From contig JAPLKA010000045.1 in the NCBI GenBank assembly GCA_026388315.1, positions 1 through 64,000 of the forward strand: a stretch of DNA of 64,000 bases, written 5' to 3'. The DNA comes from Pseudomonadota bacterium. GTDB taxonomy: Bacteria; Desulfobacterota; Syntrophorhabdia; Syntrophorhabdales; Syntrophorhabdaceae. Position numbers and translations under genes: made by a program. The notes under the pieces were generated by a model that saw only the letters and a list, made by a program, of their open reading frames with translations, ran no database searches and was not told where the DNA came from. This document shows positions 17,376 through 62,824 of the stretch, in pieces (the stretch's first letter is position 1; each line of letters starts with the position of its first letter).

Positions 17376-17388
17376 GCTGAAGGCATAG
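17359..17388. repeat. 15-bp AGGCTGAAGG repeat spanning a stop codon
   Basis: Two units, AGGCTGAAGGTAGAT and AGGCTGAAGGCATAG, in tandem. The first encodes the last residues and stop of the membrane/TPR protein. The same core is present upstream of that gene at 15036-15063, so the gene is bracketed by direct repeats. Confidence 0.65.
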
Positions 17389-17454
17389 CCCACACAGTGG
17401 GCGAGAAGGGGAGGCTCCGGCAACTTGGTTGCCGGAGGGGGCGACGCAAGCCCC
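17388..17454. repeat. GC-rich hairpin element, copy 1
   Basis: A perfect 10-bp stem with 3-nt loop, CTCCGGCAAC-TTG-GTTGCCGGAG (17415-17437), is flanked by GGGGC(N7)GCCCC (17438-17454) and GCCCAC-ACA-GTGGGC (17388-17402). Reverse-complemented, it aligns over about 67 bp with copies at 51966-52032, 61038-61105 and 62754-62824. It lies between the TPR gene and the pilA promoter. Confidence 0.8.
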
Positions 17455-17476
17455 AATAAAAGTGTGACAAATATCA

Positions 17477-50364: not shown

Positions 50365-50392
50365 CTATTCACTATTCACCATCCGCTATTCA
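50365..50392. repeat. CTATTCA heptanucleotide repeat upstream of the second hdrA
   Basis: Units CTATTCA, CTATTCA, CCATCCG, CTATTCA in register. The last base pairs overlap the stop codon of the HdrA/GltD gene. Confidence 0.85.
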
Positions 50393-53164
50393 CTGGTTTA
50401 TATACTCCATGCATCTCGATGCCGCTTCCCCGCTGGACGCGACGGTATCAGGCACGTCTTTCGGTCCTGACCCCATGCCACAGACGAATATACCGTCCAC
50501 ATTTGTAATCGATTGGGCCACTGAATTTGCTTTGATAAATCCATATTCATCTCTGTCGATGGACATGATCTTGCAGAGCTCTTCCGTTCCTTTCCGCGGT
50601 CTCACCCCTGTGGCAAGGATGACAAGATCTACCTCAACCTCCCGCATCTCTCCGCTCAGCATATCCTCAACCCTTACGAGGAGCCCGTTCTCCCCCTGCA
50701 CTACCTCTCCGGGAATACCTCTCATATAAAGAATCCCGTTCTCCTGGGTACTCTTATAAAACTCCTCGTAGTTCTTGCCGTAAGCCCTTACATCGATATA
50801 GGAAATATAAATCTGTGCGTCCCGTATCCTGTCCTTCACAATGCTCGCATGTTTTGCCGTATACATACAGCAGACTCGCGAGCAATAACGGGCACCGCTC
50901 TGTCTGTCCCTCGACCCGACGCACTGAATAAAGTAGAACCGTTTCGGCACCCGCCCGTTTAGCAGTATATCACCAGCGGTAGGCCCCGTCACCGAGCAAA
51001 TCCTCTCAAACTCAATGCCCGTTATCACCCCTTCCAAGGTGCCATACCCATATTCCCGTTTCTCTGTGGGGTCATAGAGGTCAAATCCCGGGGCGAGAAC
51101 TATGCTATCAACGTCCAAATCAACGATTTCATCTTTCAGACTATGATCAACAGCCCCCACCTCACAACGCCTCTCACATTCCCCGCACTGGATACATCCC
51201 TCAATCTGACCGGCCAAACACCGGCCGGCTTCAGTCATGGCCTCTTCTGCGCTGTAACCAAGGGCTACTTCACGAAAATTGGTCACTCTCTGATTAATCT
51301 CTTCCTCAGGCATGGGAATACGGTCTGCCTTAGTTACCCATGTCGAAAGTTTTTTCACTTCATCTTCGGATAATTTTTCCGGCTTCGCATCTATGCTCTC
51401 AGCGACTATTGCCTCTCCCTTCAGAAACTTAATAATGGAGCGAGCCGCTTTCTTGCCTGCTGCAATAGCGTCAACCACATAGGCGGGCCCTGTCGTAACA
51501 TCACCACCGGCAAATACGCCTTCTACGCTGGTTGTACAGGTAACAGGATCAGCCTCAACCGTTCCGTTCTTCCTCAATTTGACCCCAAGGGGATTAAGGA
51601 AATCGGTCTCTGTTGCCTGCCCGAGAGCAGTAATTACCGTATCAACAGGCACTGAAAATTCAGAACCTTTTATCTCTACCGGCCGTCTCCGTCCGCTTGC
51701 ATCAGGTTCGCCAAGCTCCATACGGATACACTCTGCTGCCGATACTTTTCCGTTGCTGCCATTAAACCGCACGGGTGTTGCAAGAAACTCTATTATAATC
51801 CCTTCATGTATAAGTGCCTCAACTTCTTCATCGGCCGCTGGCATCTCCTGACGGGTTCTACGATAGATCAACGTCACCTCTTCACTTCCAAGACGTTTGG
51901 CCGTTCTCGCACAATCAACCGCCGTATTGCCGCCCCCTATCACAGCCACCTTTTTTCCAATTAAAGGGACTCGCGTCGCCCCCTCCACCAGCAAAGCTGG
52001 CAGAGCCACCCCCTCTCGCTCGCCGTGCGATCTAAGAGATTCCTTTTCAAGGGATTCCCCCTTATTGACAGCCCGCAGAAACCTGAGTCCGTCCATAATG
52101 CCGGAAAGGTCTTCCCCTTCCACACCAAGCCGAATTCCTACGGGGGCACCGGTACCGACAAAAATGGCCTCATACTCATTCTTCAGAGTTTCGGCATCCA
52201 TATTTTTGCCGATCTCAATACCGCACTCAATTTTTACACCCATCCGCCTTATATATCCGATCTCTTTATCAAGCTCCGCCTTCGGCAAACGGTATTCCGG
52301 TATTGCATACCGCAACATGCCGCCCGGCTCGGGAAGGGTCTCAAAGACCGTCACAGCGTGCCCCTCCATGGCAAGATCATGGGCACAGGAAAGCCCTGCC
52401 GGTCCGGCGCCGATGACCGCCACTTTCCTCTCCGTCGTCTGTACCTGGGGCGGCTCAAGGGTATCGAGATCAAAACGGTCAACAGCAGACCGCTTCAGAT
52501 CACGGATCGCCAGAGGAGAATCAAGTTGTCCTCTGTTACAGACACCCTCGCAGGGCGCGTAACAGACCCTCCCGCATGAGGAGGGAAACGGGTTCGTCTC
52601 CCTGATGAGCATGTAGGCATCCTCAAACCTCCCCTCGCTGATATGCTTCAGGTAGCCGAGCACGTTCGTGTGAATCGGACATGCGTCAACACATGCCGCC
52701 TTACAGGGACGGTCCGCCCGTTTATCGATGCTTGCCTTATTCGGTATTGCCTGGGGAAATGGTATGTATATGGCCTTCCGAGGTCCGGTACCCATATTGA
52801 ATTCGCTCTTCATCACTACAGGACAGCCGGGGGAGCAACTCCCACAGGCCGTACATTTTTTAATATCCACGTAACGGGTTTTCTTTAATATGGTAACAGT
52901 GAAACCCGTCCCGTTCTTCTTAATTGCCACGGGTTTTGCCCATGAGAGAAGGTCAATCCTCTTCTCAAGGGCCACCTCCACCATCTTGGGCGAAAGGGTG
53001 CACGTTGAACAATCGAGAGTAGGGAAGGTTTTGTCCAATTGAATCATCCTTCCCCCGATGGAAGGACCCTCTTCGAGCATAGTTACCTTCACCCCGCATG
53101 AAGCGAGTTCAAGGCCCGCTGTAATGCCGCCTATACCTCCACCAACGACAAGAACGTGTTTCAT
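50390..53164 (-). CDS. HdrA/GltD chimeric flavin oxidoreductase
   Basis: 924 residues. The first ~125 are the N-terminal FAD part of HdrA (HVLVVGGGIGGITAGLEL, then LDCSTCTLSPKM and CTACGSCSPGCP). A complete GltD/NfnB-like module follows at about 150-620: an N-terminal Fe-S region (CVDACPIHTNVLGYL, SSCGRVCYAPCEGVCNR), a first dinucleotide site AVIGAGPAGLSCAH and a second VAVIGGGNTAVDCAR. The rest returns to HdrA sequence (CIQCGECERRC, CVGSRDRQSGARYCSRVCC). So a GltD module is inserted inside HdrA, giving two flavin systems and a probable NAD(P)H site in one chain. Residues ~378-400 are encoded by hairpin element copy 2. Confidence 0.9.
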   Translation of the reverse strand: MKHVLVVGGGIGGITAGLELASCGVKVTMLEEGPSIGGRMIQLDKTFPTLDCSTCTLSPKMVEVALEKRIDLLSWAKPVAIKKNGTGFTVTILKKTRYVDIKKCTACGSCSPGCPVVMKSEFNMGTGPRKAIYIPFPQAIPNKASIDKRADRPCKAACVDACPIHTNVLGYLKHISEGRFEDAYMLIRETNPFPSSCGRVCYAPCEGVCNRGQLDSPLAIRDLKRSAVDRFDLDTLEPPQVQTTERKVAVIGAGPAGLSCAHDLAMEGHAVTVFETLPEPGGMLRYAIPEYRLPKAELDKEIGYIRRMGVKIECGIEIGKNMDAETLKNEYEAIFVGTGAPVGIRLGVEGEDLSGIMDGLRFLRAVNKGESLEKESLRSHGEREGVALPALLVEGATRVPLIGKKVAVIGGGNTAVDCARTAKRLGSEEVTLIYRRTRQEMPAADEEVEALIHEGIIIEFLATPVRFNGSNGKVSAAECIRMELGEPDASGRRRPVEIKGSEFSVPVDTVITALGQATETDFLNPLGVKLRKNGTVEADPVTCTTSVEGVFAGGDVTTGPAYVVDAIAAGKKAARSIIKFLKGEAIVAESIDAKPEKLSEDEVKKLSTWVTKADRIPMPEEEINQRVTNFREVALGYSAEEAMTEAGRCLAGQIEGCIQCGECERRCEVGAVDHSLKDEIVDLDVDSIVLAPGFDLYDPTEKREYGYGTLEGVITGIEFERICSVTGPTAGDILLNGRVPKRFYFIQCVGSRDRQSGARYCSRVCCMYTAKHASIVKDRIRDAQIYISYIDVRAYGKNYEEFYKSTQENGILYMRGIPGEVVQGENGLLVRVEDMLSGEMREVEVDLVILATGVRPRKGTEELCKIMSIDRDEYGFIKANSVAQSITNVDGIFVCGMGSGPKDVPDTVASSGEAASRCMEYINQ
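51966..52032. repeat. GC-rich hairpin element, copy 2, inside a coding sequence
   Basis: Aligned with copies 3 and 4 in the same orientation: GGGACTCGCGTCGCCCCCTCC, then a stem CACCAGC-AAA-GCTGGC and CCCCCTCTCGCTCGCC. It is translated without frameshift or stop as about 22 residues (RSHGEREGVALPALLVEGAT) between FLRAVN and GKKVAVIGGG of the GltD module, where homologues have a short loop. Confidence 0.8.
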
Positions 53165-61014: not shown

Positions 61015-61037
61015 CAACTACCTCCATACAATTTTCT

Positions 61038-61105
61038 GGGGCTCACGTCGCCCCCTCCACCAGCAAAGCTGTCGGAGCCTCCCCCTCGCGCCTACCGTGC
61101 GGGCT
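61038..61105. repeat. GC-rich hairpin element, copy 3
   Basis: Begins TTTCTGGGGCTCACGTCGCC; the stem region on the minus strand is CTCCGACAGC-TTT-GCTGGTGGAG with two mismatches. It fills most of the gap between ligase and acyl-CoA dehydrogenase. Confidence 0.8.
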
Positions 61106-61152
61106 ATTCCACTTGACACTTTCTTTATGCGCAAAATGGTGCTCTCGTTGTC

Positions 61153-62730: not shown

Positions 62731-62753
62731 GTTGGCTCCTCCTGCTATTTTCT

Positions 62754-62824
62754 GGGGCTCACGTCGCCCCCTCCAACGGCAAAGCCGTTTGGAGTCTTCC
62801 CCTCTCGCTCGCGAGACTCGCTGC
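62754..62824. repeat. GC-rich hairpin element, copy 4, in the ligase leader
   Basis: TTTCTGGGGCTCACGTCGCC as in copy 3. On the mRNA strand the stem is CTCCAAACGGC-TTT-GCCGTTGGAG (one bulged A), about 20 bases upstream of the ligase RBS. The 357-bp gap 62731-63087 otherwise holds the sigma-54 promoter and no gene. Confidence 0.8.

Follow-up and report, generated by a model that had tools for sequence, protein, structure and literature searches.

The window analysed in this study, namely the first 64,000 nucleotides of contig JAPLKA010000045.1 (assembly GCA_026388315.1, Syntrophorhabdaceae), carries on its minus strand a gene for a 924-aa HdrA/GltD-type flavoprotein (50390..53164) with Pyr_redox_2, Fer4_20, GltD/NfnL-like, and HdrA-like domains. 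The frame of this gene stays open through a segment matching positions 1-85 of a dispersed repeat consensus, i.e. an in-frame insert of 84 bp or 28 codons (51962..52045, minus strand; residues 374-401, KESLRSHGEREGVALPALLVEGATRVPL), which includes the central hairpin of the repeat, CTCTGCCAGC-TTT-GCTGGTGGAG (51983..52005, minus strand). With E = 4e-15 in a whole-genome search, the match is far beyond chance. The original prediction correctly had the repeat read through in frame, and drew it too short at ~67 bp and ~22 residues (51966-52032). It had also linked the segment to noncoding repeats near 17.4, 61.0, and 62.8 kb, and these indeed align as copies at 17382..17465 (plus strand), 61033..61106 (minus strand), and 62747..62808 (minus strand), the latter two closely preceding an acyl-CoA dehydrogenase-like and an acyl-CoA ligase-like reading frame, respectively. 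Several noncoding copies, including these two and L020 (G000:C71, in the host genome G000), lie a few tens of bases before the start codons of metabolic genes, probably in 5' leaders.

Alignment with relatives and named records revealed a clean gap of 28 residues in HdrA homologues between NKGESLE and IGKKVAVIGGG, where proteins lacking the insert read, for instance, NSGEPVK-TGKVVAVIGGG. This places the insert after the last helix before the second Rossmann fold and ahead of the first strand of that fold; the solved NfnA structure (9n5u) aligns ungapped over the site, with residues 323 and 324 adjacent and none missing. Nearly all aligned homologues lack these residues, as had been predicted: among the compared proteins that align over the site, only the one encoded by G011:C32 (PNOM01000032, from a MAG labelled Syntrophus sp. 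and belonging to another genus) also carries the insert, at the equivalent position in an HdrA that is 94% identical. The genome of this sole sharer has at least 19 matches to the repeat, and the same residues were not seen in any homologue from a repeat-free genome. Extra loop residues of unrelated sequence occur at this site in some distant GltD-like proteins only. The DNA match to the repeat consensus spans 84 bp (51960-52043), just as long as the gap, and repeat and insert (51962-52045 by codon alignment) therefore end at the same points, within the 2 bp over which these ends can slide. The gap in homologues and the matching ends, as sequence comparisons, support the proposal that a dispersed hairpin repeat became incorporated into the HdrA/GltD reading frame. 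Since the named relatives are metagenome assemblies, a sequencing or binning artefact, or a decaying HdrA gene left open by chance, might also be invoked. This is extremely unlikely given that the same insert is found at the same codon in a separately deposited MAG, in a gene that outside the insert shows 11% nucleotide divergence and a dN/dS of about 0.06 (G000 vs G011), that the 924-aa frame is open, and that many parallel cases with empty orthologues exist.

The repeat is GC-rich and folds into three hairpins, aligned copies giving GGAATCTATT-TAGCTCGCACAGCGAGCGAGAG-GGGGAGGCTCCGGCAGCTTTGCTGGTGGAGG-GGGCGACGTGAGCCCC-NGTAATAGA. The element measures about 85 bp in the family of the host, and about 115 bp in a sister family in which a fourth, 5' hairpin is kept; this extra hairpin (GATAGATTCC...GGAATCTATC) is often retained in the sister family (G037, G041) and in G010. 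The arms of the 5' hairpin covary, with 110 compensatory positions against a random mean of 22 and maximum of 51 (38 copies, 2000 shuffles), which we take as supportive only, because the arms were located by mutual similarity and the test leans to pairing. In the host genome (3.8 Mb, 131 contigs), 43 copies were detected at E <= 2.1e-9. Across 60 relatives, the family is present in 31, all within two families of a single order (Syntrophorhabdaceae-type Deltaproteobacteria); copies were sampled by place rather than from one whole-genome sequence, and the named genomes are metagenome assemblies. The papers searched contained no mention of repeats of this type in Syntrophorhabdales.

Read in the HdrA frame, the consensus encodes SSHSEREGEAPAALLVEGATQAPVIE, and a search with this peptide recovered many copies in long open frames. 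The element lies in frame in at least 12 unrelated enzyme genes, as extra stretches of about 28-60 aa without counterpart in relatives; the in-frame insertion originally described at HdrA hence stands, and its scale was underestimated, as many other genes across the order have also been hit. Besides HdrA/GltD, the host genome carries gene-internal copies in a HemN-like radical SAM protein and V-ATPase subunit I, and those in relatives affect RecB (two copies; identified from NCBIfam), MtaB, SfsA, alpha-2-macroglobulin (A2M, two copies), a zinc alcohol dehydrogenase (ADH), RNA 2',3'-cyclic phosphodiesterase (ThpR), a PMT_2 glycosyltransferase, and a CdhD-like protein. The two RecB copies occupy different sites (L185:1583-5467, G041:C141), and recB in Xanthomonas is a reported target of REPs (PMC3733652). 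N-terminal "fusions" such as L003, L010, L014, L020, L021, and L091 are probably upstream noncoding copies and were left uncounted.

Most gene-internal copies are absent from orthologues within the same genus, and such comparisons of filled and empty alleles identify these stretches as insertions. Between G037 and G041, two members of one genus, an empty partner orthologue exists for MtaB, SfsA, ADH, both A2M sites, and the RecB sites, with alignments less clean at the first A2M site and the second RecB site. The HemN-like protein of the host has about 52 extra residues, and its same-genus orthologue in G002, 94% identical at the amino acid level, is empty (STAWCFSRNNAMIDEYVV). Because G005 and G016, from another genus (g4), carry a copy at the same place, the HemN site must have been hit at least twice or the copy lost elsewhere, and the other empty relatives favour two hits.

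Several loci display more complex arrangements. A HemN-like protein in G005 (L315/L172, G005:C12) has about 90 extra residues resembling several decayed copies at one site, and at least three tandem copies lie within one 574-codon open frame at G005:C22:6571-6884 (L186). At two loci of the host genome, L099:1533-1650 and L100:2087-2177 (both G000:C110), a second palindrome (CCCCTTACGGGGACAGGCGCAAGCC and CGGGTACCCGCTTGCGGGTG, respectively) is nested in the element within a coding gene, and the composite is still in frame.

Nearly all gene-internal copies are read in one sense frame (SSHSEREGEAPAALLVEGATQAPVI). We examined this bias in 119 copies chosen by DNA similarity alone, in order to avoid selection by frame. 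About 10 of these lie inside genes, as supported by homology or codon scores, nine in the same sense frame and one antisense. Openness fails to explain this preference, since the favoured frame accounts for 32 of the 190 frames open over a 126-nt span and the antisense frames for 131. A simple binomial test gives p of about 1e-6, in a sample that leans on G037 and G041 and whose copies are not fully independent. Given the antisense copy (L271), the frame rule is a strong bias and not an absolute one. This copy, in a SAM hydroxide adenosyltransferase (L271:945-1952, G020:C49), is accompanied by further repeat-like sequence, for a total of about 50-60 extra residues. Antisense frames over the noncoding copies L009, L013, L264, and L270 were rejected as spurious based on poor codon scores or lack of homology. 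The favoured-frame peptide contains neither Cys nor Trp, and for annotators, SSxHGEREGEAPxALxxEGATRAPxID in a deltaproteobacterial protein should be read as repeat-derived and not as a domain.

The structured, palindromic nature of the repeat RNA and its insertion in many genes could also suggest that the insert is removed at the RNA or protein level, as an intron or intein would be, and is absent from the mature protein. However, no Rfam entry, self-splicing introns included, matched anywhere in the window, so the repeat is not a catalogued RNA or intron, and gene-internal copies maintain a multiple-of-three length and an open frame, neither of which would be required of a spliced element. 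To our knowledge, 84-115 bp is also below the size of known self-splicing introns or inteins. We thus regard removal as exceedingly improbable.

The two closest pairs of filled and empty alleles, HemN and SfsA, both have ATAGA exactly at the 3' junction position in the empty allele (ATGATAGACGAA and GCCATAGATGAA, respectively). In the filled SfsA allele, ATAGAGTC-like sequence flanks the element on both sides, as does GATGGA in ADH, and under a strict pattern an ATAGA-like motif follows the element in 104 of 240 copies; the more diverged pairs do not decide the site. At HdrA, alignment with other junctions suggests ATTGG (51957..51961, minus strand) as the equivalent of this ATAGA/ATTGA-like motif, and the copy has neither a recognisable 5' hairpin nor a left target copy. 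Target-site duplication was rejected as a rule for all copies: several of them have a 5' arm resembling the 3' flank, but over the whole set the similarity of left arm and right flank is not significant (p = 0.24). The junction may contribute to the frame bias, as ATAGA in phase 0 encodes Ile-Asp/Glu and phase 2 has an in-frame stop.

The element could not be tied to any transposase. A Y1/RAYT transposase was ruled out, as no copy of the element lies within the retrieved flanks (up to about 1.5 kb) of the seven Y1 loci of the host genome, and Y1 genes were not found in the repeat-rich genomes G005 (99% complete) and G037 (97%). One conceivable though rather unlikely scheme would have the 5' hairpin act as a guide whose inner arm pairs with the ATAGA-like site, such that site and inner arm change together, as in the MtaB, ADH, SfsA, and RecB copies. 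The element would then be a target-programmable single-strand mobile element, and would owe its spread through proteins to its preferred site, whose Ile-Asp/Glu reading puts the copy in an open, hydrophilic frame.

For the HdrA insert, we compared the changed codons between G000 and G011, and found 5 nonsynonymous and 1 synonymous within the insert compared to 55 and 218 in the rest of the gene (Fisher p = 0.002). This difference indicates strong purifying selection on HdrA that does not clearly extend to the insert, which points to relaxed constraint inside it. Taken alone, the amino acid difference rate of the insert is modestly raised (p = 0.03), a level that other windows of the gene also reach. 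Synonymous change is low in the insert too (1 in 28 codons), although other 28-codon windows of the gene match this. In an AlphaFold2 model built with 42 aligned homologues, which has an NfnL/StnB-like fold, pLDDT drops below 50 at fragment residues 224-251, one residue off the insert itself (225-252); the helix before this stretch (210-219) and the strand after it (256-260) are predicted with confidence. The insert is thus predicted to form a disordered, flexible loop, for which EGVALPALLVEGATR would be one expected tryptic peptide.

The insert also appears to have a history that crosses genera. The HdrA proteins of G000 and G011 (C32, L032) are 94% identical, whereas PurF is 79% identical between these genomes and 96-97% identical between G000 and same-genus G002, whose best HdrA relative is 75% identical and without insert. 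This discrepancy indicates that the HdrA locus probably moved between genera by horizontal transfer, already carrying the insert. The inserts in the two genomes share a common ancestry. The persistence of the insert in two genera, in a gene otherwise under purifying selection and in an allele that seems to have been transferred as a unit, could reflect recruitment to HdrA/GltD function, e.g. as a docking or redox-partner loop kept by protein-level selection. This is nonetheless improbable considering the excess of nonsynonymous changes inside the insert, its predicted disorder, and the presence of the same peptide in unrelated enzymes, which argues against an HdrA-specific role.

Taken together, the HdrA segment is very probably one copy of a mobile palindromic element that works like the Rickettsia palindromic elements (RPEs), inserts beside ATAGA-like sites, and is tolerated as a flexible loop, its translation and retention in the protein being predicted. 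This non-autonomous, multi-hairpin element, confined to two families among the genomes searched, has moved repeatedly and mostly into intergenic DNA, also entering genes where the insert length is a multiple of three and the copy is read in an open, mostly hydrophilic frame. Insertion would adjoin an ATAGA-like pentanucleotide, as suggested by the empty alleles of the two closest cases and by its repetition at both ends of some copies. The insert would be translated without disturbing the enzyme, and mobilisation may be provided in trans by another enzyme.

Among known systems, the element most resembles the RPEs, i.e. dispersed palindromes found in noncoding DNA and in frame within unrelated housekeeping proteins, with no known dedicated transposase (Ogata et al. 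2000, 2002, summarised in PMC10969869). The likeness to RPEs in a different phylum, as originally proposed, was borne out: the same palindromic repeat is found inside and outside protein genes, encodes a characteristic peptide, keeps the frame in gene-internal copies whose orthologues lack the insert, and has no known dedicated transposase, a likeness in mechanism. Unlike the obligate intracellular alphaproteobacterial host of RPEs, the host here belongs to a free-living-type anaerobic deltaproteobacterial order and has a 3.8 Mb genome, and its copies comprise three or four hairpins, with an ATAGA-like motif at the junction. GTAG- and CGTC-tagged REPs are similarly palindromic and mostly intergenic. 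In several phyla, some of them lie in frame within genes and contribute 20-30 residues, with recB and other repair genes as frequent targets, and the CGTC REPs, including Rickettsial ones, also lack a linked dedicated transposase (PMC3733652). However, these REPs consist of one hairpin of 20-40 bp (or a dimer) with GTAG or CGTC at the end, whereas the element is a conserved multi-hairpin unit of 85-115 bp. Its GACG/CGTC string lies within the third hairpin, not terminally as in CGTC REPs, and the copy alignment shows conserved sequence beyond GACG and GC-rich stems in place of the defining 8-9 bp stem with A/T at its first two positions and a terminal CGTC. Nor do the aligned copies have the terminal GTAG of GTAG REPs, their ends instead reading GATAGA/TAGC and ATAGA-like, and the Y1 survey likewise revealed no RAYT partner. 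Bacterial MITEs (PMC10969869) are also short non-autonomous repeats with occasional in-frame fusions to host genes, but the element has no clean whole-element terminal inverted repeats, no parent transposon was found, and a repeated target motif occurs only in some copies. Protein-coding palindromes, earlier described as a Rickettsia peculiarity and later extended to some REP families, are now represented by a different element across an order of syntrophic anaerobes; orthologues lacking it are available within one genus and, in the case of the HemN-like protein, at 94% protein identity. Such orthologues make long-open questions testable, namely what moves these elements, what determines the choice of site and frame, and with what frequency small mobile DNA provides enzymes with flexible loops. 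Hence, as it works like RPEs and intragenic REPs and departs from the definitions of both GTAG and CGTC REPs, the repeat represents a new family of this kind, with unusually good filled and empty material and an order-wide spread.
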